A DNA stretch of 64,000 nucleotides from Nitrospiraceae bacterium (GTDB lineage Bacteria; Nitrospirota; Nitrospiria; Nitrospirales; Nitrospiraceae): contig SHZW01000006.1 in the NCBI GenBank assembly GCA_009692155.1, positions 1-64,000 on the forward strand, given 5' to 3'. Positions 11,447 to 36,048 of the stretch are shown piece by piece. The translations under genes and the position numbers were made by a program. Within the stretch, counting starts at the first letter, position 1; every line of letters starts with the position of its first letter. Below the pieces are notes generated by a model. It was not told where the DNA came from, did not search any database, and worked only from the letters and a program-made list of their open reading frames with translations.

Positions 11447-13246
11447 TTAGGCTTTGCCCTTCTTACGATTGGTCCGTCTCGTCAGAATCCATCCTTCCAG
11501 AATCACGATACCCACCGCGATCAAAGTCGGATAGATGTAGGTTTCCTTCGGGATCGGCGGCTGAAGGACGAGGTAATAAAACGCAGACACGGCCATCTTG
11601 CGGCCGGCATCTCCGTTGTGGCCATCCCACGCAAAAAACACCATGGGGATATACTTGCCGACCTCGAACCTCACGTCCTCATCATAATCAGCCTTGAGGG
11701 GCCGCTTGATCATGACACTCCATTGACCGTCTTTCCACTCGGCCTTCGCCAGCTTCAGCTTCTCCGTGTAGTCCTCACGGTCTTCGAAATCCTTGTCCCA
11801 GCCGGTTCCCACGAAGGCACGCAACGACCCGTCCGCCTCCCACTTCACGATATCCACCGGGTACTTCTCATCTCCCCACAGGTACCGCGGCTTTTCCGGT
11901 GGCGGCAGCTCCTGCCACTTGACCGGGAACTGGATCGCGATGGCATCGTTGTAGACCGGGTACTTGTTCTGACCGCCCGCGATCGATCCTTCTTCGCCCG
12001 TCTTGGGGGCCTGTTCCTTCACACCATGGGTTTCAACGTTCACTTCAGTCGGCTGCCAGGGAATCTTGGTTCCGGCTTCCTTGGCGACGCTCTTCGTCCG
12101 GTCATCCCACTGGAACAGGAACGCGATCTGCTTGTCCTTCGCGCTATACAGCGACTTGACCCAGACATCGTCGAGACGATTCACGAAGTTCCGGGGCTTG
12201 TGCGTGATCTGTCCGCCAAGCAGCACAATGCGGCGCTCACGCTTCTGCCACAGCTCGTTCTCCGGATCGTCCGGGATTTCGCCCTCCACGGTTCCAGACA
12301 GGATCACAAACTTGACCTTCGGCTTGTCGGTGAGCAGATCGATTTCCAGCGGGTTCCCCTTGGCATCCCGCTCGCACAGCGATTGCACGAAGTTCGAAAT
12401 GTGCCACCGCTCCTCGACTGTGGTGTTATCCGCAAACGATGGCATCGGCGTGCCGTTAACTCCCGTGGAGAACGTCCGGAAGATGTTCTTCACGTTATAG
12501 GCATCCTGACGGCTTCCTCTGAAGTTCCAACACTTGTGCTGGTTAGCCGGCTGAATGGAGAATCCCCAGTCATCCTTCAGATTGAAGGCATTGCCGTCGC
12601 CACGGCCCTCAGCGCCATGGCACTCGATGCACTTCTTGTCGAGGAAGAGTTGCTTGCCCTTTTCGATGCTCTCCGGGGTTGCCTTGATCTGTGCCTTCAA
12701 GAGCTGATCCCAATCAAGCACCGTCACAGTCTCAGTCGCCTTGTCATCGAACTTCCGGTCTTTCACGAGCTGGTTTGTTACAAAGGACAGAACTTGCAAC
12801 CGCTGCTCGTCCGTCAGAATGCCTTCCCAGGACGGCATCGCCGATCCCGGCAGGCCATGGGTCACAGTTTCATACAAGTCGTTCTGTCCCTTGGTCGGCT
12901 TTTGGGCATCGAACAGCGGCAACTCACCGCTGGCCGTGTGCCGAATCTTGAAGGTGCCCTGATTGAAGTTTCTCGGGCGCGGCCAGAGACGGTCGGCAGC
13001 CGGGCCGTCACCCGCACCATCAACCCCATGGCACCAGACACACTTAGTGAAATAGACACGCTTCCCGGCTTCGATCATCTCAGCCGCAGGCAGCGGAGCC
13101 AGATCACCTTTTTTGAACCCGGCCGGCAGCCCGCTCCCGGCTTCCTCAGCAAAGATCGAGACACCGGCGCTGCCCGAGACCATCGTGATCGCGAACGCGG
13201 CCGCGAGAATAAGGACTGCTTTACTCGTCAACCCAGCTTGCTTCAT
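11447..13246 (-). CDS. Dihaem c-type cytochrome with ethylbenzene-dehydrogenase-like haem domain (NxrC-like)
   Basis: Exported 599-aa protein. Signal peptide (about 1-34), two cytochrome c domains with CVWCH (about residue 70) and CIECH (about 208), then a DOMON-like domain of the type II DMSO-reductase gamma-subunit family, then a C-terminal TM with an RRTNRKKGK tail. This architecture resembles the NxrC candidates of Nitrospira, which link periplasmic nitrite oxidoreductase to the membrane (family knowledge). No alpha or beta subunit is in the window, so its partner is unknown; it may pass electrons to the oxidase of its own operon. The ATG at 13246 has GGGG upstream. Confidence 0.82.
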   Translation of the reverse strand: MKQAGLTSKAVLILAAAFAITMVSGSAGVSIFAEEAGSGLPAGFKKGDLAPLPAAEMIEAGKRVYFTKCVWCHGVDGAGDGPAADRLWPRPRNFNQGTFKIRHTASGELPLFDAQKPTKGQNDLYETVTHGLPGSAMPSWEGILTDEQRLQVLSFVTNQLVKDRKFDDKATETVTVLDWDQLLKAQIKATPESIEKGKQLFLDKKCIECHGAEGRGDGNAFNLKDDWGFSIQPANQHKCWNFRGSRQDAYNVKNIFRTFSTGVNGTPMPSFADNTTVEERWHISNFVQSLCERDAKGNPLEIDLLTDKPKVKFVILSGTVEGEIPDDPENELWQKRERRIVLLGGQITHKPRNFVNRLDDVWVKSLYSAKDKQIAFLFQWDDRTKSVAKEAGTKIPWQPTEVNVETHGVKEQAPKTGEEGSIAGGQNKYPVYNDAIAIQFPVKWQELPPPEKPRYLWGDEKYPVDIVKWEADGSLRAFVGTGWDKDFEDREDYTEKLKLAKAEWKDGQWSVMIKRPLKADYDEDVRFEVGKYIPMVFFAWDGHNGDAGRKMAVSAFYYLVLQPPIPKETYIYPTLIAVGIVILEGWILTRRTNRKKGKA

Positions 13247-13279
13247 GGTGTTGTACCCCTTCACCGATTGAATGCGGGA

Positions 13280-14332: not shown

Positions 14333-14368
14333 CTCTTCACTCCCTTTAATACACGCAAGAAACTGGAT

Positions 14369-15664: not shown

Positions 15665-15738
15665 TTCACAGCCCTCCCTCACCCAGTTCCCGCTTAGGCG
15701 GGGACCAGATCATAAGAAATCAAGCAATCAACCGAGGA

Positions 15739-17673
15739 TTAATGTCCGTGCGCAGGCTCGGGCACCCGGCCAGGCACATGAGCCTTTACATTAACCGGCA
15801 CTTTCTTGGCCCCCAACGTTCCCAGCCAGAATACGAACAGAATGCTGATCCAGAAAAACAGCACGTTAAATGAAATCATATTGGCGGCAAAACCCACCGT
15901 GTGCGTATAGGCCCAGGGCGAGTTATCGCGCATGATCTCATTCACATGCCAGAACAGACGCACGGACGACCGGATGTAGCCCATCAGCCCCATCATCCAG
16001 GTGAATGCCGTCGCCAGCATGATGATCGCGTACTGGGACCGCACAGAAATCTTGCCCCATTCGATCGGTCCCATCTGCTTGGCCCCCTTCAACATGAAGC
16101 CATTCAGAGCAGTCATGAAGAAGAGGCACGACAGCGTCGTGGCGACTTGAGGCACCGACAGCCCGACTCGGACGTTTGCCGGGATATAGTAGCCGTAGAC
16201 GGCAAGCCAGATGATATTCACATAGGCGAAACCGAAGAACGCCCCCATGAAGATGTTCCCGAAATTCTTCCACGGCACCATCGGCTCCTTGTTCCCGCGC
16301 ATATACCAGATAAAGCTCAGCACCGTCGTGGTGATGATCACGTTGATGCCGCCGTTCTTGGCCGACATCACACCGTAGTTCCCCAACACCGGGTGCTGCT
16401 GGCCGCCCATGGCTTTGAGCTCAGCCGGCGTCATGACCATCGTGTGCGGCGTGATGAAGATCAGGAACCCGCACACCAGCACAAACACCAGATACTTGAT
16501 GTACCGCTGATATTTTTCCGCGCCGCGCATTCTTCCGAGCGCCTGCCACAGGTAGTAGTTGGTGCTCAGAAACAGAATGCCGATCATGGTCGCCTGGATG
16601 ATGAAGAGCCACGCCAGCAGCCCGCCCATCAGCGTGATCCCCATCTGCTGACGGTAGGCATAGACCTCGCGCATCAGCCAGTAGCCGGCGAATGGCAGCG
16701 GAATCAAGAACGCAACGGCGAGGGCCATCGCGATATAGCCCATCCAGTCATAATGGGCCCGCTCCTCGTCGGTCTTCGCGGAGAGGAACCGGTACGCCGC
16801 ATAGGCCGCCACCACGCCACCGCCGAAGGCCATATTGCCCAGAATGCGATGCACGTTCAGCGGGTTCCACAGCGCCGTATGGATCACGTGCCAGATATTG
16901 CCCAGGAAGCGGCCCTGCTCATCCACGCCGGCTGGAGACATCATGAACCCGATCCAGGAATTCGCCAGCATCATCAGCAGAGTCCCAATGACGTTCAGGA
17001 TCACCGACATGCTGAGGTGAATCCACTTCAGGAACCCCTCCTTCATCTTGTCCCATCCATAATAGTAAATATAGAGGGTGCCGCTCTCGGCCACGAACAT
17101 CAACGCGTAGATGTGCATGACGGGGCGGAAGATGCTGGAGAGATACCCGAAGAACGCAGGATACAAAGTCAGAAAGGTAAAGATCAGAATGCCGCCAAGG
17201 ATGGCCGTCAGCGAGTAGGCCGTCAGGCTGATCTTGATAAAGTCATAGGCGAGCTGATCGTACTTCTTCGCCATCGCCTTGTCCTTGGTGACCACCCCCA
17301 TGAACTCGATGATCATACAGAAGATGGGTACCGCCAGGACGAAACTGCCATAATACAAATGCTGCTGGTTGGCAAACCACAGGAGCACGCGGCTCTCGAA
17401 GTTATAGCGCGGGTAGTCCCTGGGGCCGTCCACCGTCTTTGGGGCCGGAGCTCCCGAGACGATGCCCTCGGTCTTATAATAGACATCCCGGCCTTTCTCG
17501 ACCTTGGCCTCGTCCTTCTTCTCCCCCTCCGCCTTGACTGCAGGAGCCGGCGGCGCCTCGCCCCCTCCGCTCGCAAGCGCGTTCAACGAAGTGGCGACCG
17601 GCAGAAGAAGGAAGCCAATCATCGCGCAGAGCGCCATGATCGACCAGATCTTCTTTCCGTTTTGACGACCCAT
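15739..17673 (-). CDS. Cytochrome bd-like terminal oxidase, large subunit
   Basis: A 644-aa polytopic protein (about 13-14 TM) with an N-terminal signal anchor. CydA-like marks are visible: QQH in the first core helix (haem ligand position), ANSWIGFMMSPAG (CydA ANxWMQxPxG), NPLNVHR, and AGYWLMREVYAYRQQ at the GRQP-like site. The usual CydA is ~450-520 aa, so this belongs to the extended Nitrospira-type family proposed as terminal oxidase there (family knowledge). No CydB follows; cytochromes c and microproteins do. The start at 17673 has a perfect GGAGG with 7-nt spacing. A paralogue lies at 21248-23137. Confidence 0.85.
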   Translation of the reverse strand: MGRQNGKKIWSIMALCAMIGFLLLPVATSLNALASGGGEAPPAPAVKAEGEKKDEAKVEKGRDVYYKTEGIVSGAPAPKTVDGPRDYPRYNFESRVLLWFANQQHLYYGSFVLAVPIFCMIIEFMGVVTKDKAMAKKYDQLAYDFIKISLTAYSLTAILGGILIFTFLTLYPAFFGYLSSIFRPVMHIYALMFVAESGTLYIYYYGWDKMKEGFLKWIHLSMSVILNVIGTLLMMLANSWIGFMMSPAGVDEQGRFLGNIWHVIHTALWNPLNVHRILGNMAFGGGVVAAYAAYRFLSAKTDEERAHYDWMGYIAMALAVAFLIPLPFAGYWLMREVYAYRQQMGITLMGGLLAWLFIIQATMIGILFLSTNYYLWQALGRMRGAEKYQRYIKYLVFVLVCGFLIFITPHTMVMTPAELKAMGGQQHPVLGNYGVMSAKNGGINVIITTTVLSFIWYMRGNKEPMVPWKNFGNIFMGAFFGFAYVNIIWLAVYGYYIPANVRVGLSVPQVATTLSCLFFMTALNGFMLKGAKQMGPIEWGKISVRSQYAIIMLATAFTWMMGLMGYIRSSVRLFWHVNEIMRDNSPWAYTHTVGFAANMISFNVLFFWISILFVFWLGTLGAKKVPVNVKAHVPGRVPEPAHGH

Positions 17674-17736
17674 GGTATACCTCCCTGACAACCGTCTCAT
17701 GATTTTCAGTTTCACAATGTTCCGATGCGGCAACGA

Positions 17737-18198: not shown

Positions 18199-18303
18199 AT
18201 GGGAAAAAACTCGAAAACCTTCGATATTGTAGTTTTGGCTGGCATGGTTGTCAATATAATTTTGGCCGTCTTTCTCATTCTCTACTACTTTGACTTCTTG
18301 TGA
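18199..18303 (+). CDS. 34-aa single-TM microprotein
   Basis: ATG at 18199, TGA at 18301-18303. The residues are a short basic N-terminus (MGKNSK) and one long hydrophobic helix ending YYFDFL. Its 3' end overlaps the convergent SUMF1 gene by 19 bp. The ribosome site (GGGGTAGAG) is imperfect. The codons make a clean membrane helix, which is unlikely by chance but not proof. It may be another small subunit of the respiratory complex. Confidence 0.45.
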   Translation: MGKNSKTFDIVVLAGMVVNIILAVFLILYYFDFL

Positions 18304-19202: not shown

Positions 19203-19265
19203 GGCCGCAAACTTCTGGCTGGCCTCTCGTCCCGCGGGAAATAATGTCGCGCATGAATCGGGAGG

Positions 19266-20591: not shown

Positions 20592-20615
20592 GGCCAGCGC
20601 GTCTCGACGAGACGG

Positions 20616-21251
20616 TTACGGAGCGGTCACAATGATCGGCCCAAAATCCACTTCCACGCCGGGTCCGCCCAGCAGGGAAATCCCCCAGGCCTGGGCCGCC
20701 GGTTCGTGCCGATGGATGCGCTTGAAATCTTCATACGCATTCACGCGCTGCTCCACCCACTCCCCAAATCCTCTTGAGCCTTTCTGCAAGACAATCTCGG
20801 AGGCGTCGAACAGCCCGCCTTCCGTCATCGTGCCGACGTCCTTGGTCTGGCTCCAGACATATTTCGTGGCCACCGGGATGACCAGCAGATCCGTGTCCAG
20901 CGAGACAAAGACCGCCGCGATCGGATCGGCTCCAGCCGGCGCTTTTTTCACCCGCCAGCGCCACGTGACGATCGGCATGGCCTTGGGATCCCAGGCGATC
21001 CGCTTGTAGACCCGCTGATCGGCGCCCTTGGCTGCCAGAAACGTCATGCCCTTCTCGGATTGAACCGTGTATTGTTTCCTCGCTTTCGTCTCCTGTCGCT
21101 GCGCCTTCCATGCCGTCGGGAACCCGTCCGCGTCTTTGGCACTGTACTCATCCAGCACCAACAAGCCGGCCGATTGGGCCGACATCGGAACGGAGAACGC
21201 GCAGAACACGACCAGCGCGCCGACGGACGCCATTCCTGCCACATGCTTCAT
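20616..21251 (-). CDS. DUF3047 exported protein
   Basis: A 211-aa protein with a signal peptide (about 1-28, ending SAQSAG) and the DUF3047 core: YKRIAWDPKAMPIVTWRWRV, DPIAAVFVSLD, VATKYVWS, and a terminal VDFGPIIVTAP. The biochemical role of this family is unknown. Its ATG overlaps the stop of the second bd-like oxidase (ATGA), so it is co-translated with it. The frame remains open far upstream to 22268, but that part overlaps the oxidase and is a shadow. Confidence 0.82.
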   Translation of the reverse strand: MKHVAGMASVGALVVFCAFSVPMSAQSAGLLVLDEYSAKDADGFPTAWKAQRQETKARKQYTVQSEKGMTFLAAKGADQRVYKRIAWDPKAMPIVTWRWRVKKAPAGADPIAAVFVSLDTDLLVIPVATKYVWSQTKDVGTMTEGGLFDASEIVLQKGSRGFGEWVEQRVNAYEDFKRIHRHEPAAQAWGISLLGGPGVEVDFGPIIVTAP

Positions 21252-23137
21252 GACGGCTGCGCCTCCTGCGGCGACGGCGGAAAGAGCGGCCGGTTCTCCA
21301 TCGCCGCATCCATTTGGGGAAGCGGGCGCTGATCGCGGCTGCTGAGCCAGAACAGCAGCAATGCCGTCATCCAGAATACCACCATGTTCACCGTCACCAT
21401 CTTGGCCGCAAAAGCCAGCGTGGGGGTATAGGCCCAGGGCGAGGCATCGGGCATCAGTTCGTTGACATGCCAGGCCAACCGGCCTGACGAGCGAATATAG
21501 CCCATGAGTCCCATCACCCACGTGAAGGAAGCCGCCAGCCCAAAGAGCGTCACCATGCCCCGGACGGACATTTTTCCCCACACCACCGAACCATGCACGA
21601 TCGCCCCGCGCAGCATCGCGCGATTGAGCAACAACCCGGCTACGACGGCCGTCAGCGTGGTAAACGCCTGCGGCGATGACAGCCCCACGCGCACACTGGC
21701 CGGCACATAGAACCCGTAAATGGCCAGCCAGACGATGTTCACCATGCCGGCGCCAAACAACGCGGCCAGCAGGATGTTCCCCTTGCGCGCCCAGGGCACG
21801 GTGATCGTACGATTCGCGCGCCGGTAGAAGATATAGCTCAAGGCCGTCAGGCAGATCATCACGTTCACCGCGCCGTTCTTGGCCGACATCACGCCGTAAT
21901 TGCCGACCACCGGATGCTGCGCGCCTCCCATGGCTTTCACTTCGCTTCCGGTCATCATCACCGTATGCGGCGTCAGCCACACGAAAATGCAGCCCGTCAG
22001 CCCCAGGATCAGGTACTTGTACGCCTGCTCGTAGCGTTGCCCTCCCTGCAGCCGCCCCATGCTCTGCCAGAGGTAATAGTTGATGCCGAGAAACAGCACG
22101 CCGATCAGGAGCGCCTGCACGACGAACAGCCACGTCAGCAGCCCGCCCATCATCGTCACGCCCATGCTTTGCCGGAACGCATACACCGACCGCATCAGCC
22201 AGTAGCCCGCAAAAGGCATCGGCAACAGCGCGACCACCGTCACGATCAGGAACACCGCCCCGACCCAATCGTAGTAGGCCCGCTCCTCCTCCGACTTGCT
22301 CGTCAAAAACCGATACGACGCGTAGGCCAGCACCACGGCCCCGCCGGACATGATGTCCGCAAGAAACCGGTGGACATTGAGCGGATTCCAGAGCGCCGTG
22401 TGCATCAGGTGCCAGACATTACCCAGAAAGCGCCCCTGGGCATCCACACCGGCCGGCGACATCATGAAGGCAATCCAGCTGTTTGCCAGAAACAACAGCA
22501 TCGCACCGAAGATGTTGGAGAGGATGCCGATCGCTGCATGGAACCATTTCAGCGCCGGCGACGCCATGCGGTTCCAGGTGTAGTAGTAGGCGATCAGGCA
22601 CAGGGCTTCCGCGTTGAAGACGAAGGCATAGACGGGCATCATCGCCTTGAATGTCCCGCCCATGTACTGCATGAAGCCCGGATAGAACCAGATGAACAGC
22701 CCCAGCATCAGGCTCCCGACCACAGCCGTCAGCGACATCGCCAGCAGCGCGACGCGCAGAAAGTCCCGGGCCGTCTGGTCGTACCGTAGCGCCGCCGCCC
22801 GGTCGCGCGTGACGAGACCGGCAAACTCCAGGATCACGCAGAAAATGGGAAGTGCGAGCACGAAGCCGCCGAAATAGGTGTGCTGCTGGGTGACAAACCA
22901 GACGAACGTGCGGTTGTCCAGTGAGCCATAGCGGGGATAGGCCGACGCATCACCTGCCGGCGCCGGCGGACCATTGGGAACACCCGGCGTCTTGTAATAG
23001 ACATCCGTGGCCGTCTCGGTTGCAGGCCCCGCACTGTTCTCTGCCACGGTTGCGGCACCGAGCGGCACCGCGAGCAGCGCCAGCACGAACATGATGGCAG
23101 CCCATGCAACTGGCTTTGACTGAAAATGATTGATCAT
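21248..23137 (-). CDS. Second cytochrome bd-like oxidase, large subunit
   Basis: A 629-aa paralogue of the protein at 15739-17673, similar along its whole length: a signal-anchor N-terminus, DVYYKTPG, QQHTYFGGFVLALPIF, ANSWIAFMMSPAGVDAQGRFLG, NPLNVHRFL, AGYWLMRSVYAFRQ. It keeps the same haem-ligand candidates. Unlike the first copy it has no adjacent cytochrome c or 74/38-aa genes; it is surrounded by PCP_red, DUF420-like and DUF3047 genes. ATG at 23137 preferred over a TTG at 23164. It overlaps DUF3047 by 4 nt. Confidence 0.83.
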   Translation of the reverse strand: MINHFQSKPVAWAAIMFVLALLAVPLGAATVAENSAGPATETATDVYYKTPGVPNGPPAPAGDASAYPRYGSLDNRTFVWFVTQQHTYFGGFVLALPIFCVILEFAGLVTRDRAAALRYDQTARDFLRVALLAMSLTAVVGSLMLGLFIWFYPGFMQYMGGTFKAMMPVYAFVFNAEALCLIAYYYTWNRMASPALKWFHAAIGILSNIFGAMLLFLANSWIAFMMSPAGVDAQGRFLGNVWHLMHTALWNPLNVHRFLADIMSGGAVVLAYASYRFLTSKSEEERAYYDWVGAVFLIVTVVALLPMPFAGYWLMRSVYAFRQSMGVTMMGGLLTWLFVVQALLIGVLFLGINYYLWQSMGRLQGGQRYEQAYKYLILGLTGCIFVWLTPHTVMMTGSEVKAMGGAQHPVVGNYGVMSAKNGAVNVMICLTALSYIFYRRANRTITVPWARKGNILLAALFGAGMVNIVWLAIYGFYVPASVRVGLSSPQAFTTLTAVVAGLLLNRAMLRGAIVHGSVVWGKMSVRGMVTLFGLAASFTWVMGLMGYIRSSGRLAWHVNELMPDASPWAYTPTLAFAAKMVTVNMVVFWMTALLLFWLSSRDQRPLPQMDAAMENRPLFPPSPQEAQPS

Positions 23138-23144
23138 GCTTGGC

Positions 23145-24239
23145 TCAACTGTGCTTTCCCGCAATGACCGTCGGAGAGGGAATCGTGGACATCACCCCAG
23201 GCGGCGGGCCGCCTCGTCCCAGAGTCGGCTGCTTCGACAGAATACCCATCACAAACGGGCAGCGCAACAGGGAAGGCGGGACTATCTGGCGAAGCTGATT
23301 TTCCACATGGCGGCGATGCCCCAGGTAATAACAATACATCGCCATCATACCGGCCACGGCACCGGCAATCACTCCCCGCGTCAGGCTGCCACTCACGTCA
23401 GTGTGCATCACGAAGAACAACAGCCCAGCCCACGAGAGATAATAGGTCGCGGCAAAGGCGAGACCGGGCCACCACCAATAGCGAAACAGTTCCATCCATC
23501 CGGCCGCGCTCATCATGGCGCTCCACCCGCCGGGCCGTTGTTCGCCCGCCAAATACGCCCACACGGACAGGCTCCCGGCGCACAGCGTCACCAGGATCAA
23601 CTGGGCCAACCCTGTTGCCGCCTGGTCATGCACCATGCCCAGAGCAACCGCCACCACCGCACAACCCAACGCTGGGAACAGCGCCCACCGGACGATCTGC
23701 CCGGTTCGAGCACCGGCGGTGTCTCTGAAGCTCGCACCGTCTGGAAATGTCACGATCGGTTCGCCTTGCCGCTGGAGGCGGCGGACATGTCCGATCTCGA
23801 ACGCATCGCGCGCGACAGACGTACAGGCAATGATGATCGCCATCATCGCCGGGCCGTCCGGATGCTGGAGAAAATCGTAATTCACCAGAATCTTCAGCAA
23901 GGCCAGCACCATCAAGGACAACTGCACGCCGTAGACGAATCCAATCCATCCGACCAGCCAGGCCAGCCGGCGCATGCCGTCTTCGCGCCTCACTTGAGCA
24001 AGAGACACCTGGCGTCCCATCCGATAGGACCAGACCGCCGTCGCCGCCGACACCACACCGCTCACTGCCAGCAACATGATCGCATCCGAAAGCGGGACGA
24101 TCTGTTTCGTCAGGCGGTAGATGACAAAAGCCACGAGGCCAGGGGCAAGCATCACCAGCCGCTTGCGCTTGCGGACTGGCTCCGCCGTCACTGCCAGCGC
24201 CAGGGAAGGGAGCACCCGCAAGGCCATCCGATGCAACAT
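23145..24239 (-). CDS. Polytopic membrane protein of unknown family
   Basis: A 364-aa protein with about eight or nine TM helices, an RKRKR basic stretch after residue 22, and a Pro/Gly-rich C-terminus. Potential metal ligands are scattered (for example MHTDV, YYLGHRRHVENQ). I recognise no family. It ends 7 bp before the second bd-like oxidase, so it is likely co-transcribed and may be an additional membrane subunit or assembly factor. Confidence 0.7.
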   Translation of the reverse strand: MLHRMALRVLPSLALAVTAEPVRKRKRLVMLAPGLVAFVIYRLTKQIVPLSDAIMLLAVSGVVSAATAVWSYRMGRQVSLAQVRREDGMRRLAWLVGWIGFVYGVQLSLMVLALLKILVNYDFLQHPDGPAMMAIIIACTSVARDAFEIGHVRRLQRQGEPIVTFPDGASFRDTAGARTGQIVRWALFPALGCAVVAVALGMVHDQAATGLAQLILVTLCAGSLSVWAYLAGEQRPGGWSAMMSAAGWMELFRYWWWPGLAFAATYYLSWAGLLFFVMHTDVSGSLTRGVIAGAVAGMMAMYCYYLGHRRHVENQLRQIVPPSLLRCPFVMGILSKQPTLGRGGPPPGVMSTIPSPTVIAGKHS

Positions 24240-24295
24240 AATGAGCTCGTTAGGCGTGAAACGTAAGGCGAAGCCCCGCCCCCACGTTTTACCTT

Positions 24296-24787: not shown

Positions 24788-24791
24788 GGCA

Positions 24792-25508
24792 TTACCCAAT
24801 TTTCCCCGGATACAGAATGTAGAGCATCGTGTACGTGAGACTGCCGGTCACGAACAGCACGCAATAGACGATCATCGTAAACAGACCCAGCGCCCGGTGC
24901 CGCCGTTCGCCGTTCGGCCAGATCCGCTGAATGGCCATTTCCACGGCAAAGACGATCCCGATCAGGATCACGAACCCGAGATAGACTTCCAGCTTACGCA
25001 CCGAGAATCCCGCTGTCGCCACGCGCCAGAGAAACAGTCCGACGAGGACCGCCGCGATGCTGCCGAAAATTTTCCCGACTTTCCCCCAGGAGGTCTGCAG
25101 CAGGGCATCGCGAAGCACACGCTTGCCTTCGACGATAGCCTGCGAGCGGAATCCCAGCACGATCATGTAGACCGCCATGACGATACCGATCACCACCAAC
25201 ATGATGTGGAAGGTCAGAAGAGGAATAAATACATTGTGATACAGGGCTTCCGATCCTCCGAAGCCTTCCTTCCCTTCAAAGGCCAGCACGCCCAGCGACC
25301 GGAAGAGGTAATAGCTGGTGAAAAACGCCAGCATGGCGATCATGCCGCTCAGCATCAGCCAATGATGCACGTGCCCCTGCCGCTGGCGCGCCTGCAACCA
25401 GCCGATCACAAACAGGGTCGTAAATACGGCCGCCATGAGCTGGCTGAGGTCCGCGCCCATCGTCGCGTGTGTGCCAAAAAACCCCGATTGCTTGAGAAAC
25501 TCCGCCAT
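24792..25508 (-). CDS. DUF420-like membrane protein
   Basis: A 238-aa protein with about six TM helices. Features like DUF420: HHWLMLSGMIAM, SYYLF, a central FHIMLVVIG helix, and the C-terminal RHRALGLFTMIVY...LTYTMLYILYPG. DUF420 proteins occur with haem-copper oxidase genes and are linked to oxidase assembly (CtaM type). Here it sits in the second bd-like oxidase cluster, between PCP_red and the methyltransferase. Family assignment is by motif only. Confidence 0.65.
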   Translation of the reverse strand: MAEFLKQSGFFGTHATMGADLSQLMAAVFTTLFVIGWLQARQRQGHVHHWLMLSGMIAMLAFFTSYYLFRSLGVLAFEGKEGFGGSEALYHNVFIPLLTFHIMLVVIGIVMAVYMIVLGFRSQAIVEGKRVLRDALLQTSWGKVGKIFGSIAAVLVGLFLWRVATAGFSVRKLEVYLGFVILIGIVFAVEMAIQRIWPNGERRHRALGLFTMIVYCVLFVTGSLTYTMLYILYPGKIG

Positions 25509-26730: not shown

Positions 26731-27516
26731 CTACTTGATTTGGGCGGTCACCGTCGCCTTACCGCCTTCGGGCACATCGACTTCGACTTCAACCGCCTTG
26801 CCCTTGCCCACGAACGGATGCCAGACCGTCAGCTTGTGCTTGCCCGCCGGCACGTCCTTGATTTCGAAGGAGCCGTCATTGCCCGCCACCGCGAAGTGCG
26901 GGTTGTTCACCGGCCAGAAGAACGACTGCATGAACTCATGCTGGTCGCACTGCAGGCGGAGCATGGAGCCCTGCTTGCGCATGATCGCCGGCTTGTCGAG
27001 CTTGGAGTCTTTCTCCGCGAGCGCGATATTAAAGATCGTCGAGGAACTGGGGCCCATGACTTCGAAGGAATGCGGGTTGTGCAGCACGCCCTTCAACGAC
27101 TTCGGATCGTCCGGATCGCTGTCATGGTTCTCGACGTGGAAATTCTTCATCTTGACCACCACGCCCGTGTACGGCTGGAACTCGCAGAACTCGGCCACGA
27201 CTTCGGTGCCCTTGTAGCCGTCGACGAACGCCTTGTCCTCGACGTCGGCCACCGCCACCACGGCGCCCTTGAGACCACCACCATTGACCTCGATGGTCTT
27301 CAGGATCCGCTTGTCGCCCTGAGAGAGTTCCTTTTTGGGAATCTTCGGGCAGAATTTCGGATTCGGGAACTTGGCGAAGGAGAAATCCTTCTCCTCGGCC
27401 TTGCCGGCATAGGTCACCTTACCTGAAATGGTCCCGCCGGCAAACGAGGTGAGGGGCATGGCGAGAAACGCCACCGCCACCATAACAACGACAAACAATA
27501 CACCCTTCTTCTCCAT
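26731..27516 (-). CDS. Exported cupredoxin/carboxypeptidase-regulatory-like protein
   Basis: A 261-aa protein with a signal peptide (about 1-26, ending TSFAGG) and a GTISGKVTYAG start of the mature part. A candidate blue-copper site is formed by His in LHNPHSF and the cluster QCDQHEFM (Cys-x2-His-x2-Met). The C-terminal ~70 residues are a carboxypeptidase-regulatory/transthyretin-like beta domain (GSFEIKDVPAGKHKLTVWHP). Related genes lie at 29096 and 30049. It has its own promoter (27640-27669), perfect GGAGG ribosome site and terminator, suggesting independent strong expression. A periplasmic electron carrier is inferred. Confidence 0.78.
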   Translation of the reverse strand: MEKKGVLFVVVMVAVAFLAMPLTSFAGGTISGKVTYAGKAEEKDFSFAKFPNPKFCPKIPKKELSQGDKRILKTIEVNGGGLKGAVVAVADVEDKAFVDGYKGTEVVAEFCEFQPYTGVVVKMKNFHVENHDSDPDDPKSLKGVLHNPHSFEVMGPSSSTIFNIALAEKDSKLDKPAIMRKQGSMLRLQCDQHEFMQSFFWPVNNPHFAVAGNDGSFEIKDVPAGKHKLTVWHPFVGKGKAVEVEVDVPEGGKATVTAQIK

Positions 27517-27679: not shown

Positions 27680-29080
27680 TCACCCCTCGATCGGGTCACC
27701 CTTGCCGGTTCCAGCCTTCCCATCCAACCAGCGGATCAGGGCACCGGCCGCCGTGGCCCGCACCGCCTCGTCCTGGTCGTGCAAGGCCTGTTTCAGGAGG
27801 CTGCCGGTCTGCTCACTTTTAATGTGACCAAGCGCTCTGGCTGCCATCATTCTCGGCAGGGGCAAGGGGTCCTGGAGAAGAAGCTGCAACGTACCGATGG
27901 CGTCCTGAACAGATTTGCCCCGTGCTTTTGTAAGCGATTTGGCCACGCGATCCCGCACGCGCGGACTATTATCATTCTTCAACTCGCGCACCACTCCTGC
28001 AACCTCATCATAGGGCACGCCGAACTCCAACAACACCTCGACGGCATCCGCCCTGACCCCTGGGTTTTGATCGTTCAGGCTTTGTTTCAATGCAGGGAGC
28101 GCGTCGCGGTATTGCAATTTCCCCAGACTGCTCACGGCGGCGCCCCGGACAACCGGGATCGGATCATGCAACGCCTTGAGCAACAAGGGGCCGGCCTTCC
28201 TCTCACCAAGATCGCCCAACCCCGACACGGCTGCGGCCCGCACGGAGGGCTGCGTCTCTCCCAGCGCGGCTTCGAGTTCGGGGAAGGATGCGGCTTTCTT
28301 TAACAGACCGAGCGTCCGCAGCGCGGCGCTCCGTTCTTCTGGATTCCTGGATTTCGCCGATCCGCTCAGCCGTTCCCATCCGAGCGGTTGATTTAGCATG
28401 GCGAGCGCGCCGGCAGCGGATACGCGCACCAGCGGCTCCTCATCGTCGAGCGACTTCTCGATCAACCCGGCCATCGCCCTATCACCAGTCTTCCCCAGCG
28501 CCTGCACGGCGTATACCCGGACATAGGCGGCCTGGTCCTGCAGCGCGCCTTTGAGACGCGGTGAGCGCTGGCCCGCCTTCAGTTGCCCTAATCCCTTTAC
28601 CGCGAGTGCGCGTATCATTCCGGATCCGTCGCTCAACCCGTCTTCGAAATAGGGAACCGTCTCCTCAGAGTCGATTTCCTTGAGCGCGGTATACCCTGCG
28701 CCTCGCATCTGGTCCCGCATATCCTTGAGCAAGGGGACGATGAATCCGAACGACACCTCACGCAGCAACGGCCGGTCCTCTGATTTTCCGGATTGCACAA
28801 GCGCGTCATATTCGGCCAGCGCGTCCAGCGGCTTGCCCGATTTCGCGAAGGCTTTGATCTTGAGCCGGCGGACGTCGGGAGTAACCTTGCCGCCTTTCTC
28901 CAACGATTCGAGGATCTGAAGCGCCTGGTCATACTGCTGCTTGCTGAAGGCGGCTTGCGCCTCCTTCAAACCGTCAGGCCGAGCCGGCTCTGCGGCCAGC
29001 GCAGGGCTACTGATCGCCAGGAAGCACCACGTTACAGTCAGAAGGAAAAGACGAGTTGGAAAGGAGTGAAGGGAAGTCAC
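27680..29080 (-). CDS. Exported TPR/HEAT-repeat protein
   Basis: A 466-aa protein: signal peptide (about 1-29, ending SPALAA), a short TPR-like part (AQAAFSKQQYDQALQILESL), then about ten HEAT/PBS-lyase-like repeats from residue ~110 to the end (units such as RAAAVSGLGDLGERKAGPLL). Probably a periplasmic scaffold binding other proteins. It lies 15 bp after a cupredoxin-like gene in the multicopper-oxidase island. The start is GTG. Confidence 0.85.
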   Translation of the reverse strand: MTSLHSFPTRLFLLTVTWCFLAISSPALAAEPARPDGLKEAQAAFSKQQYDQALQILESLEKGGKVTPDVRRLKIKAFAKSGKPLDALAEYDALVQSGKSEDRPLLREVSFGFIVPLLKDMRDQMRGAGYTALKEIDSEETVPYFEDGLSDGSGMIRALAVKGLGQLKAGQRSPRLKGALQDQAAYVRVYAVQALGKTGDRAMAGLIEKSLDDEEPLVRVSAAGALAMLNQPLGWERLSGSAKSRNPEERSAALRTLGLLKKAASFPELEAALGETQPSVRAAAVSGLGDLGERKAGPLLLKALHDPIPVVRGAAVSSLGKLQYRDALPALKQSLNDQNPGVRADAVEVLLEFGVPYDEVAGVVRELKNDNSPRVRDRVAKSLTKARGKSVQDAIGTLQLLLQDPLPLPRMMAARALGHIKSEQTGSLLKQALHDQDEAVRATAAGALIRWLDGKAGTGKGDPIEG

Positions 29081-29095: not shown

Positions 29096-30025
29096 TTAAT
29101 GCTGGAGCTGAACTAACGGCTCAATGTGCAGGGGATGGCCAAGCGCTTCCATGCCGAACCGGGGATTCTCCACGACCTGGTGGGAAGTGCGGCGTCCAGC
29201 CGGTGCCTTCATGGAAAAATGTACCTCGGCCTTGCCGTCCGGCTTCACCACGACAATCTCCTCCGACATGGTGCCTACATAAGGATGCCACGCCACCATC
29301 CGATAGCTGCCGGGCGGCACGTTCTCGATCGTGTACGAACCGGAGTCATCCGTGATCGCGTAATAGGGATTGGAAACCGCCAGCCCCCAGCTGAGCATAT
29401 AGGCATGAAAGCCGCATTGCATGACGAACAGCTTACGGCCTTTGTGCAAATTGACAGGCTCCAGCATGGACGGACCGGGCATGTGCCGGTGCGTCGCATG
29501 GAGATCGCCGCGCTTGTGATGGGCATTCATCGGCAACGGCGAATTGAAGATCACGCGCGGACCCAACTGCAGTGACGTCTCGTACGCCTGAATGTCGTGC
29601 ATGACCGGGTCCATGTTCACGACTTCCACTGCATGGCCGTTGCGCACCACGGTCACAAAGGGCTGGAACTTGCAATCGCGTGCTTCGACACGGGGCACCG
29701 ACAGATCGAAGGGCCTGCCCCTCTCCACGCCTTCCAGAGAGATGGCGACATCCTTGAGCCCGCCAGTCTGATCGATTGAAAAATCGTGGAGCAGCCGCCA
29801 GCCGCTTCCATTCGAGATGCGACCGCAGTATTCCGGATCGGGGAAGGTGACGAGATTGAACCCTTGCGACGTTGGAACCGGCTGGCCCTGAAGCGTCACC
29901 TTGCCGGTGATAGTCCCGCCATGCTCGACCTCGGCTACTTCATAGGCCGAGGCGGGCATGCCGGGCAGAAGACCAAGCGCCAGCATCCCTCCAATTGCCA
30001 AGAAGATTCGATGGGAAAGGATCAT
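29096..30025 (-). CDS. Exported cupredoxin/carboxypeptidase-regulatory-like protein
   Basis: A 309-aa protein with a signal peptide (about 1-27). Candidate type 1 copper ligands: His in DPVMHDIQAYE (about 124), then Cys, His and Met in MQCGFHAYM (about 205). A carboxypeptidase-regulatory-like beta domain follows (GSYTIENVPPGSYRMVAWHP). It is very similar to the next gene upstream (30049). It lies 23 bp downstream of that gene, so probably the same operon as the multicopper oxidase. Likely electron carrier or copper-binding partner (inference). Confidence 0.8.
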   Translation of the reverse strand: MILSHRIFLAIGGMLALGLLPGMPASAYEVAEVEHGGTITGKVTLQGQPVPTSQGFNLVTFPDPEYCGRISNGSGWRLLHDFSIDQTGGLKDVAISLEGVERGRPFDLSVPRVEARDCKFQPFVTVVRNGHAVEVVNMDPVMHDIQAYETSLQLGPRVIFNSPLPMNAHHKRGDLHATHRHMPGPSMLEPVNLHKGRKLFVMQCGFHAYMLSWGLAVSNPYYAITDDSGSYTIENVPPGSYRMVAWHPYVGTMSEEIVVVKPDGKAEVHFSMKAPAGRRTSHQVVENPRFGMEALGHPLHIEPLVQLQH

Positions 30026-30048: not shown

Positions 30049-30957
30049 TTAAGGCTTTTGCAACTCAAGGGTCGGACGGATATCCACGGTCTTGCCCAAC
30101 GATTCCGGGCCGTAGTGGGGATTCTCCATGATCTCGTGCACGCTCCGCCGTCCGGTGGGCGTCTTGAAGGCGAACGCTGCGGTCGCGGTGCCTTTCGCCT
30201 TCACAACGATCTTCCTCTCCTGCATGGTTTGGACCTGCGGATGCCAGGCGACCAGCACATACTCGCCGGGCGGGACATCGGGAATCGAAAACGTCCCGTC
30301 TTTTGCCGTCACCGCATAATAGGGATTGTCGATCGCCATCCCCCAGCTTTCCATGTAGGCATGAAACCCGCACTGCATCACGAAGATACGGCGTCCCTTG
30401 GTCATGTGGATCGGTTGCGTCACCGGCTCGCCGGCCAGATGCTCGTGGCTGTCCGCACTGACTTCACGGCGGTGGTGGGCATTCATCGGCAGCGGCGTAT
30501 TGAACAACACGCGCGGCCCGAGATGCGACGTCTCGTAGGCCTGGATGTCGTGCATGACGGGATCCATGTTCATCACCACGACGTCGCTCCGATCCTTGAC
30601 GATCGTCATAAACGGCAGAAATCGGCAGTCGCGGGCTTCGATCGTCGGTGGAGAAAACGCAAAGGACTTGCCCCGTTGGACCTCTGCCAGAAATACCACG
30701 ACATCCTTCAACCCGCCGTCCGACGCGATCGCAAACTCATCCAGCACACGCCAGCCGGTGCCGGTCGAGATCCGCCCGCAATAGACCGGATCGGGGAACG
30801 TGATGAGATTGAATCCCTTGGCGACCGGCTTGCCGCCGGCGATCGTCACCTTGCCTGAGATCACCCCGCCGTCGGACACGGTGATTTCTTCATAGGCCCG
30901 CGCCGGCACAGAACACACCAGCATCATGGCCATCGCCAGGACCATTACTCGCGTCAT
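30049..30957 (-). CDS. Exported cupredoxin/carboxypeptidase-regulatory-like protein
   Basis: A 302-aa close paralogue of the protein at 29096, with a signal peptide (MTRVMVLAMAM...PARA), His in DPVMHDIQAYE, the CGFHAYM copper motif and the GTFSIPDVPPGEYVLVAWHP beta domain. ATG at 30957 with GGAG eight nt upstream; the frame extends to 30990 but would enter the hairpin. It is the first gene after the multicopper oxidase, separated by a strong hairpin that may attenuate transcription. Confidence 0.8.
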   Translation of the reverse strand: MTRVMVLAMAMMLVCSVPARAYEEITVSDGGVISGKVTIAGGKPVAKGFNLITFPDPVYCGRISTGTGWRVLDEFAIASDGGLKDVVVFLAEVQRGKSFAFSPPTIEARDCRFLPFMTIVKDRSDVVVMNMDPVMHDIQAYETSHLGPRVLFNTPLPMNAHHRREVSADSHEHLAGEPVTQPIHMTKGRRIFVMQCGFHAYMESWGMAIDNPYYAVTAKDGTFSIPDVPPGEYVLVAWHPQVQTMQERKIVVKAKGTATAAFAFKTPTGRRSVHEIMENPHYGPESLGKTVDIRPTLELQKP

Positions 30958-30989
30958 TGAGAATGCTCCACTATGATTCATCATAAACA

Positions 30990-31018
30990 ATGAGGGGGAG
31001 CCTTGGGCTCCCCCTCAT
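30990..31018 (-). terminator. Hairpin between multicopper oxidase and cupredoxin genes
   Basis: A perfect 13-bp stem (30990-31002 with 31006-31018), 3-nt loop, then TGTTTA on the minus strand. It lies 33 bp after the multicopper oxidase stop. The short T-tract suggests partial termination, which would set a lower level for the downstream genes, or protection of the upstream mRNA. Confidence 0.6.
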
Positions 31019-31051: not shown

Positions 31052-34000
31052 TTACCGCGTCGACACCGGCACGATCGGCGTCGAAGTCTCCGCTCCGGCG
31101 CGCTTCGAACCAGGTGTCGCACCGCTCAACGACAGGAGCGACTGATCGCCGGCCGGGCGAACCCGCAGATAGCCCCACTGCCCGGACTGGGAGTACGGCA
31201 ACCGCTGGTTGCTCCAGACGTAATCGCCCGCCATCCGATACGGACCACCCGCCGACGGCAGGAACGCGTCGATGGTCTCCGAGCCGGAGAATTCCACGAC
31301 GCTGATCTGATCCGCGCCCCGCATGAAGGGCTCGATGGGCCACTCATGCTTCTCGACGCTGAACATCTGATTCTGCTCGTTGTTCGCACCGAACACGTGG
31401 ATCCGCACAGGATCGCCCGCGTGCGCCTCGATGAGCGGCGTCACTGGATCTTCCGGCTTGTCGGTCTTGCACGGCTGGAACATCTTGCCCAGCGAGCAGC
31501 CCGATTCCTCGCGGAACTTGTACGGCTCCGACCGGTAGTTGACGCCGGTCAGGCCCGCCACGTTCTGCACGTAGGGCATGAAACTGGTGCCGATGATGTT
31601 GTCCTCGTCCTGGAAGAACAGCGCCGCATCGCGGTAGTTCGTCCGATGCTCGTAGCCCTGGAGGGTTCGATCCACGATCACATCGGCCACCCAGGCGTTC
31701 TTGCTAGACACATCCGCGCCTGTCTTCGGATCGCGATACTGGGCGCCCTTCGGCCCGATAATCACGGCGCCGAACAGGCCGTCCCGCGGATTGGTCATCA
31801 CGTTCCCCCAATCCCACACCAGCGAGGAAATCTCGCCCAGCGACGGATCGGCATAATAGGTGTACGTGCGGCTTTCACCCGCGGCGATCGTCTGATCGCC
31901 GCCGTTATTACCCACGTTCGCGCCCAGCGAATCCTTGGGATCGAACGCCAGGGAGATCGCCGAGAATGACGCGCGGCTCTTCTTCATCTTGTTCTTCAGA
32001 TTGACCTTGATACAGTCCCCCGTGTTGACACGCAGGGTCAACGGCATCGGCTGCGCGCCGGTCGCCGCCGCGGACGCATCGCCCTCCAACGCGAAAATCT
32101 TCGCGTCGGGGTTGGTGATCTGGATCTTCCGCTCGAAGTCCACCTCGATGGTGTCCGGCGCCTTCGGGTTGAACTTCATGGACGGATAGTCCATCGCCAC
32201 CACATTGAACGACTTCACCGGCGCACCGGCCGGGCAGACCGGCATGGCGCCGGGGATTTCGTTCCGGCCGCTGTATCCCGCCGGCAGTCTCTGCAGATCC
32301 GGCTGCTCCTTGTCGTGCACCCGGATGATGCCCCAGGCGCCTTCCGAGAATTTCGAGGAGCGCCCGTTGAAGTGAATGTAGTCGCCGGCCTGCGCGCGCG
32401 GCCCGCCCGCCTTCGGCACGACCAGGTCGTACCGCTCGGCGATTCCGATGTGGATCGAGTTCTTGCGGTTCGCATCGCCCGCATAGCGCTCGCTCAGGAA
32501 GGTATGGCCCGAAATGGTCCAGACCATGCTCTCGTTCATGAGCGTATGCAGCAGCCTGAAGACCATCGTGTCGCCCGTGTAGGCGCGCAGCAACGGCGTG
32601 TAGGGATCTCCATGGATCTTGCTGTCGAAGATCTTGGAGCTGTCCGGATTCGTCGCCAACCGCTGCGCAATCGGTCCCGCTCGGAAATTCAATCCGCTGC
32701 CGGTCGTATGCGTGCCGCCATTCAGGAACGGCATCGGCGTCATGTAAATCTTCTCCGGCATCATAAAGGACACGGTCTTACCTGCTTCCAGCGCCACTTC
32801 GATCGGCTGGCCGGGAGGATTCCCGGCCGTCACGATGTTCACCGTGTGCGGCACCGTGTCATGGACCATGACCGACAACTCCCGGAAGCTGCCGTTCACC
32901 GCATGACCCACCGGCTCGACGGTGCGTATGTCCGCCACCGGACCGCTCCGCACTTCCTTGCCGGTCGCCGGATTATGATACGTCGACCCGAACGGCTCGG
33001 CGATGAAGGCCCCGAAGCCACCGTGCGGCCACGTGGTCGCGCCGAAGGCATGGTCGTGCCAGAACACCGTGCCCACGTCCGCATCCACCCAGAACCGCTG
33101 CCGGACGAACTCCACCGTGATGATGTCGTTCGCCGGGTGGTCGTTCTTCAGCGGACGCGTGAGCGTGATGGTATTGCCGTTGATCTCTTTGATCCGGGCG
33201 ACTTCGTTACCCTTCACATTGTCCGCCCCGACCAGCAATTCCGTATTCACATGGAACTGGGCCGCGTTCTTGACTGTGATGCTCTTGGCCCCCTTCTTGG
33301 CCGCCGCCGTGATCGCCGAGTTCATCGGCGCCGGCAGGCCCTTCTTGTTCTTCTTCTCCAGCATCGTGAACGGCCGGACCGACTGTTCGTAGGAGAAGCC
33401 GGTGATCACGCCGTCCGACGACTGGTTGTCGAACTGCAGGAAATGCCAGTGCGTGTTGATCTTGGACGACTGGAAGTTCGTGTAATCGTCGTCGTCCCAC
33501 TCGCTGGTCAGCGTCCAGTCCACGCAGTCATAGATATTGCCACGGACGACCAGCGGATATTTGAGATCGTCGTTGGCCCGGATCGCCGCTTCTTCGTCAT
33601 GCAAGACATAGATCAAGCCGTTCGGATCCACCACGGCCGGCTCCTTGCCCTGCGCCTTGGCCAGCTTGATCGGGAGTTTAATGAAATGGACGTTATAGCT
33701 CTTCCGTCCGGCATTCTCCGGGCACAGGCTCCAGCGCCCACTCTCGCCCGGCTTCGCCTGCTCCAGGCTCGGCTCGCCGTCCTCGTCCCGGGCGATCATC
33801 TCCAGCCATGGCGCGCCGGAGTGCCGCGGGGAGAACATCACCCGCTTGCCGAAGTGCGGCGTCAAGTGCGGCCACGCCACCTTGCCTGTCGCCGGTTCGA
33901 ACGTGATCGGATGCCGCTTGCCCGGATGCGTGGACTTGTACTTGGGATTGTCGATCGTGCTCTCTTTCTCGCTCATCGCGCGGGGGCCTTCCCAGATCCA

Positions 34001-35890
34001 GTCCAGCACCGTCGCATCGTAGGAAACGATCTGCCCCTTCTCGTCGTCCTTGTGGCCCGGCTTGCCCTGTGGCGGCAGCTGCATCTCGACCCAGTCCTTG
34101 ATGTTGATCACGGCCGGATTCGACTTCCAGTTGCTCTTACCCTTGTCCGCGATCTGGAAGGTTTTGCCGAACCAATCCAAGGTCTTGCCGACCAGCTTGT
34201 CTGAAGTCACACCGGACTTGATCCGGCCCTTCCGGTCCGGCAGTTCGCGCAGGTCCGGCATCGTATCGTTGCGCTGGTCTCCAATCTGCATCGTGTTGTA
34301 CACGCGCCAGTAGCCCCACATGCCCGCCACATAATGGTGCGCGACGTGGCAGTGGAACAGGAAGTCGCCTGCCAGCTGCTGGCAGAGACCCGATCCGCAC
34401 TCCGTCTCCAGGTCGAGCGCCTCGGAGGGCCCGATCACTTCAACGTCCACGCGGTCCGTCTTGACGCGGATCACCGGATATTTCACCGGCCCGTTGGTCG
34501 CCGTGGCCCACAAATTCATGTCGTCGATCGCCCGCGGGCTGCGCGGCCAGCGGATGGTGCCGCCGTGCGGATGGTGCGAGTGGAACACTTCCGACCCGCC
34601 GTGCACGAGGCGGAACTTGGCCGGATCGCCCATGTACGAGCGAGGAATCGTCGGGGACGGATCGCCGAAGGTATAGGAACTGTAGCCCATCGACTCGTCC
34701 TCGAAGCCGAAGTACTCGTGCTGCACGTGCATATTATTGATGCCGAACGGCTCGCTGCGGTAGTTGATCGAGCGGCCGGCCGGGCGATAGGCATCCGTCA
34801 GCGGATCGCGCTGCGGGATGAAGTCGCCCTTCTTATTGTTGATCCGGAAGGCTTCGTCGCCGTTCTCGTGGTAGATCAGCACGAACTCGCGGAAATCCGG
34901 GCCGGTCCCGTTCTTGATGATGACCTGCCAGCCACTCCGCGCCGGCGTCGGATCGCCAGTGCCCAGCGGCTCCAGGTACTCCGAGCCCTTCGGTTCCACG
35001 ACGAAGGTACCGAACATGCCCAGCACCGTCAGCTCGCGGTCGTTGCTGAAACTGTGGAACTGCCGGCCGCCCTCTTGAGTCGCCGGGTGGATGTACCATT
35101 CCAGATCGGCCGCCTTGTCCTTGGCGACGATCGAATCCGGGTTGGTCGTCGTCGCCGGCTTGCCGGTTGCTCCGACCACCATACTGGAGCCGTGGATGTG
35201 CAGACTCACATCTTCGCCGCCCTCCAGCTTGTTCTGCAGCTTGATCTTGACGCAGTCGCCCTGGTTGCCGCGGATCACCAGCGGCTGAATCCACTGGGCC
35301 TGCACGCCGGGCAGCACCGCGCCGGGGTCATAGCCTTCCTTATCGCGGGCTTCCGCATTCTTCTTTTCTTCCGCGCGGATCTTGTCGAGATTTTCGGTCA
35401 GCGTGTACATGTAGCCGGGGTAGAAATCCAGCCACTGGTTGAGCGTGATCTCAACATTGATCGCCGACACGTCGTAAGACCGGACCGGGGCGCCAGCCGG
35501 GCAGCGGCCGCCCTGCATGACCGGTTCCTGGCGCGGGTCCGAGACGAGCAGCATGTCCTGCCCGCCGGCCCCATACTGGTGCATCATGGACATATTGTTG
35601 AAGGCGCCGGTCGTGTGCTGCCCCTGGGCGTCCTGCTCCATCTGGCGCATAATGCGCTGATGCTGCATCTCCACCTGGAACGAACGCTCCGCGCGCCCCT
35701 CCTTGGCGTCTTCCACAATGGTCTGGCCCTTGAGTTTCTCGGCCCACTCCGGCGTCTGCTGGGTCATCCCCGTCTGGTGGACGTGGGCTGCCGGCGTCTC
35801 AGCCGAGACCGCCACCGGGAGCATTGCGAATGCGCCGATGGCCAGCCAACTGAACGGGCGGACAACTGAAGAGAAAATGGGGTGTAACAT
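31052..35890 (-). CDS. Giant multicopper oxidase with permuted copper motifs
   Basis: A 1612-aa exported protein: signal peptide (about 1-30) and three large two-cupredoxin units (about 130-530, 730-1190, 1220-1580). Copper motifs in order: HIH (231-233), HSHHPH (437-442), HCHVAHHYVAGM (513-524; type 1 plus type 3 ligands), HWH (814-816), HDH (945-947). The two late trinuclear motifs come first and the two early ones come after, a permuted order as I recall for MnxG/McoA-type manganese oxidases, which are of similar size. Unit 3 has lost its ligands. Substrate unknown: Mn(II), Fe(II), Cu(I) or other. ATG at 35890 with perfect AGGAGG. Confidence 0.88.
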   Translation of the reverse strand: MLHPIFSSVVRPFSWLAIGAFAMLPVAVSAETPAAHVHQTGMTQQTPEWAEKLKGQTIVEDAKEGRAERSFQVEMQHQRIMRQMEQDAQGQHTTGAFNNMSMMHQYGAGGQDMLLVSDPRQEPVMQGGRCPAGAPVRSYDVSAINVEITLNQWLDFYPGYMYTLTENLDKIRAEEKKNAEARDKEGYDPGAVLPGVQAQWIQPLVIRGNQGDCVKIKLQNKLEGGEDVSLHIHGSSMVVGATGKPATTTNPDSIVAKDKAADLEWYIHPATQEGGRQFHSFSNDRELTVLGMFGTFVVEPKGSEYLEPLGTGDPTPARSGWQVIIKNGTGPDFREFVLIYHENGDEAFRINNKKGDFIPQRDPLTDAYRPAGRSINYRSEPFGINNMHVQHEYFGFEDESMGYSSYTFGDPSPTIPRSYMGDPAKFRLVHGGSEVFHSHHPHGGTIRWPRSPRAIDDMNLWATATNGPVKYPVIRVKTDRVDVEVIGPSEALDLETECGSGLCQQLAGDFLFHCHVAHHYVAGMWGYWRVYNTMQIGDQRNDTMPDLRELPDRKGRIKSGVTSDKLVGKTLDWFGKTFQIADKGKSNWKSNPAVINIKDWVEMQLPPQGKPGHKDDEKGQIVSYDATVLDWIWEGPRAMSEKESTIDNPKYKSTHPGKRHPITFEPATGKVAWPHLTPHFGKRVMFSPRHSGAPWLEMIARDEDGEPSLEQAKPGESGRWSLCPENAGRKSYNVHFIKLPIKLAKAQGKEPAVVDPNGLIYVLHDEEAAIRANDDLKYPLVVRGNIYDCVDWTLTSEWDDDDYTNFQSSKINTHWHFLQFDNQSSDGVITGFSYEQSVRPFTMLEKKNKKGLPAPMNSAITAAAKKGAKSITVKNAAQFHVNTELLVGADNVKGNEVARIKEINGNTITLTRPLKNDHPANDIITVEFVRQRFWVDADVGTVFWHDHAFGATTWPHGGFGAFIAEPFGSTYHNPATGKEVRSGPVADIRTVEPVGHAVNGSFRELSVMVHDTVPHTVNIVTAGNPPGQPIEVALEAGKTVSFMMPEKIYMTPMPFLNGGTHTTGSGLNFRAGPIAQRLATNPDSSKIFDSKIHGDPYTPLLRAYTGDTMVFRLLHTLMNESMVWTISGHTFLSERYAGDANRKNSIHIGIAERYDLVVPKAGGPRAQAGDYIHFNGRSSKFSEGAWGIIRVHDKEQPDLQRLPAGYSGRNEIPGAMPVCPAGAPVKSFNVVAMDYPSMKFNPKAPDTIEVDFERKIQITNPDAKIFALEGDASAAATGAQPMPLTLRVNTGDCIKVNLKNKMKKSRASFSAISLAFDPKDSLGANVGNNGGDQTIAAGESRTYTYYADPSLGEISSLVWDWGNVMTNPRDGLFGAVIIGPKGAQYRDPKTGADVSSKNAWVADVIVDRTLQGYEHRTNYRDAALFFQDEDNIIGTSFMPYVQNVAGLTGVNYRSEPYKFREESGCSLGKMFQPCKTDKPEDPVTPLIEAHAGDPVRIHVFGANNEQNQMFSVEKHEWPIEPFMRGADQISVVEFSGSETIDAFLPSAGGPYRMAGDYVWSNQRLPYSQSGQWGYLRVRPAGDQSLLSLSGATPGSKRAGAETSTPIVPVSTR

Positions 35891-36048
35891 GGGACGGCCT
35901 CCTTGAAATGGAAATGACATGGCAAGCTCTGTGAATCAGTTATGTGGTTACAGGATGGACACTGGCGGGAACACTACCCGGCCTGTGACACGTAACCGCG
36001 ACAACCCTCCAAACAACATTTTGATAAATATAGAATAAAAACGGCCCT

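Follow-up and report, generated by a model that had tools for sequence, protein, structure and literature searches.

A very large predicted multicopper oxidase of the Nitrospiria and the cupredoxin encoded beside it

The window, by which we mean the whole 64,000-nucleotide stretch that was analysed (positions 1 to 64,000 of contig SHZW01000006.1 of a Nitrospiraceae bacterium, assembly GCA_009692155.1), carries a gene for what is predicted to be a very large secreted six-cupredoxin multicopper oxidase (MCO). It is followed by genes for three cupredoxin proteins, CupA, CupB and CupC, and by a respiratory gene cluster (table 1). The MCO open reading frame spans positions 31052–35920 on the reverse strand and encodes 1622 amino acids when counted from 35920. 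The predicted signal peptide begins after the ATG at 35890, and this, together with the AAGGAGG box in front of the same ATG, indicates that the 1612-residue start chosen in the first-pass annotation of this DNA is right. Residue numbers given here for MCO count from 35920, and subtracting 10 converts them to the numbering of the 1612-residue protein. All four groups of copper-binding motifs lie where that annotation had put them, except that its range of 814–957 for the last two mixes the numberings, HDH being at 945–947 in the 1612-residue protein.

Table 1. Features of the MCO locus, with positions in the window.
Feature	Position	Strand	Basis or remarks
MCO gene, 1612 aa; Sec signal peptide followed by six cupredoxin domains	31052..35890	(-)	ORF, RBS, PF07732/PF07731, MnxG 9bxa match
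Ribosome-binding site AAGGAGG	35898..35904	(-)	Sequence; 7 nt before ATG at 35890
MCO motif C, HSHHPH, residues 447-452, domain 2	34565..34582	(-)	H447, H450, H452 invariant in 131/131 Nitrospirota copies
MCO motif D, HCHVAHHYVAGM, residues 523-534, type-1/type-3 ligands, domain 2	34319..34354	(-)	H523, C524, H525, H529, M534 in 131/131
MCO motif A, HWH, residues 824-826, domain 3	33443..33451	(-)	131/131
MCO insert, ~85 aa, separating motifs A and B	33101..33358	(-)	Alignment; largely absent from Bacillus MnxG
MCO motif B, HDH, residues 955-957, domain 3	33050..33058	(-)	131/131
MCO third two-domain unit, without copper ligands	31106..32245	(-)	HHalign, units 1/2/3 99.8-99.9%
CupA, cupredoxin (H147...C207-x2-H210-x2-M213) + CarboxypepD_reg domain	30049..30990	(-)	Directly downstream of MCO; probable start 30954
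CupB, CupA paralogue (54% identical)	29096..30025	(-)	Domain and sequence comparison
HEAT-repeat protein	27680..29080	(-)	Within conserved neighbourhood
CupC, third cupredoxin/CarboxypepD_reg protein (31% to CupA)	26731..27516	(-)	Domain and sequence comparison
Cytochrome bd-like oxidase subunit	21248..23164	(-)	PF01654 on N-terminal part; synteny in N. moscoviensis and N. defluvii loci
Second cytochrome bd-like oxidase subunit	15739..17733	(-)	PF01654
Cytochrome c + type II DMSO-reductase gamma-like (NxrC-like) protein	11447..13264	(-)	PF00034, PF09459, TIGR03477

MCO consists of three mutually homologous two-domain cupredoxin units, as seen when it is split at residues 135–565, 590–1225 and 1226–1605 and the parts are compared with HHalign (99.8–99.9%). 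The third unit had been described as having lost its ligands, and the alignment bears this out, since HWH and HDH of unit 2 fall opposite the ligand-free FSA and WDW of unit 3. Two further domains have no copper site, the first of unit 1 and the second of unit 2; an HIH at residues 241–243 in domain 1 is vestigial and varies among the Nitrospirota copies. MCO is thus predicted to have one intact copper site, with type 1 copper in domain 2 and the trinuclear centre between domains 2 and 3, which is the placement normal for bacterial six-domain MCOs (PMC3600357). The order of its motifs, HxxHxH and HCHxxxHxxxxM before HxH and HDH, had earlier been singled out as permuted. That order turns out to be nothing special, as it is identical in Bacillus MnxG and agrees with the usual site placement in bacterial six-domain MCOs (PMC3600357). 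A covalent trimer of two-domain units offers three possible trinuclear interfaces, so no permutation is needed to account for it; circular permutation was rejected, as the order follows from triplication and the loss of different sites. Ceruloplasmin and hephaestin likewise have six cupredoxin domains and a single trinuclear centre, but that centre sits between domains 1 and 6 (domains 6 and 1 in ceruloplasmin) rather than between 2 and 3 (PMC3600357).

All copper ligands of MCO are invariant in an alignment of 131 Nitrospirota copies. The pattern HCHxxxHxxxxM arose in none of 20,000 shuffles of the MCO sequence and seven HxH arose in 12 of them; HxxHxH alone is a weak signal, appearing in 994 of 20,000. 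Residue 528, at +5 of the type-1 motif and beside the type-1 His, is H in 127 of the 131 copies and mostly P in the outgroups. The Nitrospiria proteins are distinguished by this His for Pro, a longer loop after motif C and an insert that puts some 85 additional residues between motifs A and B.

The first-pass annotation had likened MCO to the Mn(II) oxidases of the MnxG/McoA kind. Bacillus sp. PL-12 MnxG (PDB 9bxa, Mnx H340A complex) is the sole PDB match to MCO by single sequence (E 2e-75) and the clear best match by profile (E about 2e-106). An AlphaFold model of residues 135–1228, made from a shallow alignment of 49 sequences, was of low quality, with a pLDDT of 61.6 and low values near several ligands, and was used for a fold search alone, in which MnxG was again by far the best match (E 2.6e-39, the next about 2e-11). 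The structural comparison suggested by that annotation therefore gives the fold and, the model being too weak, not the copper centre; that the copper ligands of MCO would meet rests on homology to MnxG. The two proteins have six cupredoxins, site placement and motif order in common, but MCO is about 390 amino acids longer and carries the insert between motifs A and B, position +5 of its type-1 motif is H where MnxG has P, and a downstream cupredoxin takes the place of MnxE/MnxF-like partners. Judged by neighbours and size, no MnxE/MnxF-like pair was found beside MCO, the upstream gene being a divergent permease and the downstream genes cupredoxins.

Kinship of the MnxG kind thus stands, but orthology does not. 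Our phylogeny of long multicopper oxidases, a check proposed at the outset, took in a Priestia MnxG orthologue, Pseudomonas-type MnxG relatives, and haloarchaeal, actinobacterial and other homologues. It gave a Nitrospiria clade apart from both Bacillus and Pseudomonas MnxG, a branch with support of 100 separating all 47 Nitrospiria rows of this quick tree from Priestia MnxG; the deepest nodes, where branches are long, are uncertain. By its place in this tree MCO belongs to a Nitrospiria-specific clade and is a distant relative of MnxG, not an MnxG orthologue. The NCBIfam MnxG equivalog model NF041487 gives MCO 120 bits against a cut-off of 3100. Because the Priestia orthologue of Bacillus MnxG, a near-full-length match, itself scores only 333 bits, we consider this model to be Pseudomonas-type. 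MCO is a distant homologue of that type, whose nearer relatives (L149, 1409 bits; L164, 1418 bits) fall in another clade. Large MCOs of another clade are also carried by Nitrospirota outside the class (L163 and L164 of G130; L165 of G254). Membership of the CopA/CueO type was ruled out by a score of 20.8 bits with TIGR01480 (cut-off 478.95) and by the presence of six domains rather than the three-domain size. No match to MCO was found among the phages searched. Matches in 'Opitutales' and 'Nitrosomonas' MAGs (L045, L063) likely come from misbinned Nitrospirota contigs.

The genes around MCO follow an order conserved in Nitrospira: APC permease, MCO, CupA, CupB, HEAT, CupC, methyltransferase, DUF420, PCP_red and bd-like oxidase. 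The respiratory cluster occupies window positions 11447–17733 and 20208–25508 and comprises an NxrC-like/cytochrome c fusion, two more c-type cytochromes, two bd-like subunits, DUF420 and PCP_red. Inside it, at 18285–20186, lies a pair of FGE/SUMF1-type genes (PF03781), and such pairs recur beside B-type MCO-cupredoxin pairs (L068, L080, L168, L172, L175, L177). An exported orthologue of MCO, 81% identical, is found in the same gene order in Ca. N. defluvii, near bd-like oxidase and cupredoxin genes (L028/L166), and the family has therefore already been described. The orthologue of N. moscoviensis is 82% identical. In 2013 Luecker et al. described an MCO of Nitrospina gracilis and Ca. N. defluvii that resembles the Bacillus SG-1 Mn oxidase and whose gene has NXR, bd-like oxidase and cupredoxin genes in its vicinity; in their proposal, Mn(III) made in nitrifiers may serve in defence against ROS (PMC3578206). 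The window differs from that description in that MCO lies in a bd-like oxidase cluster, with the nxrA/nxrB-like genes on another contig. Since the genome has such genes, the window organism is probably a nitrite oxidiser.

A search of 396 Nitrospirota genomes found MCO in 163 of the 164 sampled Nitrospiria and in only 7 of 232 others, all of the latter being weak matches; detailed searches gave one to four copies per genome of the class. We then compared this distribution with that of NxrA, querying with the NxrA of the window's genome at a threshold of 1e-60. (TIGR03479 was dropped as a marker, as nearly all of the 396 genomes matched it, with two candidates per genome scored.) At this threshold no NxrA was found in any of the 20 genomes that belong to the class but not to the order, in three genomes of one family of the order (f4), or in the Nitrospiraceae genomes G239 and G110, the last of which is closed; all of these carry MCO. 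As genomes without an NxrA match keep MCO, the enzyme is unlikely to serve nitrite oxidation alone. The enzyme, with all its copper ligands, is present in practically every Nitrospiria genome with or without nxrA, and so must matter to the class. The closed G110 genome (99% complete) has three MCO copies (L176, L177, L178), one of them divergent and grouping in the tree with an HCHIPQ-type copy. Family f4 also holds a very long-branched homologue (L190, G311:C8) whose neighbour in the tree is a Streptomyces homologue.

What most sets the Nitrospiria loci apart is the cupredoxin. CupA has a His...Cys-x2-His-x2-Met site, invariant in 63 sequences, and a cupredoxin fold; its model is confident (pLDDT 91.7) and matches NirK, plastocyanin, auracyanin and amicyanin in the PDB (probability 1.00). 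We counted pairing among the 98 MCO copies that have at least 1.5 kb of downstream flank, 4 of which fall outside the Nitrospiria clade. A same-strand cupredoxin lies downstream of 81 of the remaining 94, no more than 300 bp away in 75 cases, and is absent there beside 13, some of which have one upstream or shared in tandem. None of ten outgroup MCO loci has a downstream cupredoxin. The pairing persists in families whose MCOs are about 60% identical and where little else of the neighbourhood remains. Identities among MCOs and among cupredoxins are correlated (Mantel r 0.76, none of 2000 permutations as high, the permutations ignoring shared ancestry). In three of the four genomes that hold both A- and B-type cupredoxins, the two types share only about 50% identity, as expected if MCO-cupredoxin pairs duplicated together. 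By these comparisons, the CupA-type cupredoxin has co-diversified with MCO across the Nitrospiria; adjacency and co-diversification would not establish electron transfer between the two or its direction.

We tentatively favour the idea that CupA is the physiological electron partner of MCO and that the pair may act in the periplasm as a copper relay or electron sink that reduces O2. From what is known of MCO chemistry, electrons would enter MCO singly at the type-1 copper and pass along the His-Cys-His to the trinuclear centre, where O2 would be reduced to water. The neighbouring CupA would act as partner in this exchange, and the pair would work beside the cytochrome c/bd-like respiratory cluster and not as a stand-alone, mineral-forming Mn oxidase. 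Our preference for a CupA partnership over direct oxidation of Mn or Fe comes from the pairing, which is the strongest of the class-specific signals and which MnxG-type loci do not show. The pairing turns the label 'MnxG-like' into a two-protein system that is open to expression and assay.

Direct metal oxidation is nevertheless a possible, if somewhat less probable, role: MCO may be an Mn(II) or Fe(II) oxidase like MnxG, taking electrons singly from metal bound close to its type-1 copper and reducing O2. The closest solved relative is, after all, a Mn oxidase, and the nearly constant H528 adjoins the type-1 His. This residue occupies what we take to be the position of the ceruloplasmin iron ligand Asp1025. 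The idea is in print for the homologue in Nitrospina and N. defluvii (PMC3578206), and mnxG-like genes have been called in Nitrospirota MAGs from Mn-nodule sediment (PMC10367259). Set against these points are the separation of the clade from both MnxG groups, a divergent permease upstream where an MnxE/MnxF-like pair might have been, the near-universal occurrence of MCO among Nitrospiria genomes, including those of nitrite oxidisers, and the cupredoxin partner, which is absent from all ten outgroup loci. For the Mn site of MnxG, the literature searched gave no details at the level of residues.

An improbable combination of the two ideas would have electrons from Mn(II) or Fe(II) leave the type-1 site of MCO for CupA and the cytochrome c/bd-like chain, and not go only to O2. 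A lithotrophic role for an MCO would need a periplasmic electron carrier (PMC9040806), and CupA, if the combination were true, would be that carrier for MCO-based Mn(II) lithotrophy throughout the Nitrospiria. The same study reported two 'novel MCOs' in all Manganitrophaceae in 2022, their role there being putative (PMC9040806). Ca. Manganitrophaceae belong to the same class, and as MCO is near-universal in it, these proteins and the window MCO are probably of the same family; those organisms differ in growing on Mn(II).

It is unlikely that MCO is a CueO/CopA-like periplasmic cuprous oxidase serving copper homeostasis, for which CupA would be a copper-binding partner. Its neighbours do bind copper, and some outgroup MCOs (Streptomyces, Priestia, Rubrobacter) have CopC/CopD-type genes close by, but the TIGR01480 match is marginal, copper efflux genes are absent among the MCO neighbours examined, and genomes hold one to four copies. 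Least probable of all is a dedicated part in nitrite oxidation, carrying electrons between NXR and the terminal oxidase, since the genomes with MCO and no detectable NxrA (the 20 class members outside the order, G239 and closed G110) outweigh for us the MCO paralogue less than 6 kb from nxrA in two genomes (G149, G253), the Nitrospina gene within the NXR cluster (PMC3578206) and the nxrA/B-like genes of the window genome.

A claim that MCO is a new type of enzyme fails, as the family has been in print since 2013 (PMC3578206) and appears again in later reports (PMC9040806, PMC10367259). Undescribed in the literature searched are its class-wide retention, its independence from nxrA and the co-diversifying cupredoxin; multicopper oxidases go unmentioned in the main text of a 2025 comparative study of the Nitrospirales (PMC12342949). 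The MCO-cupredoxin pair bears on the link between manganese oxidation and nitrification within one class.

Finally, some MCO copies carry a LysM domain between motifs A and B, as in L054 (CDS 310–5394; E 4.6e-16) and L067 (CDS 10019–15172; E 6.9e-15), an insertion that suggests anchoring of these copies to peptidoglycan.
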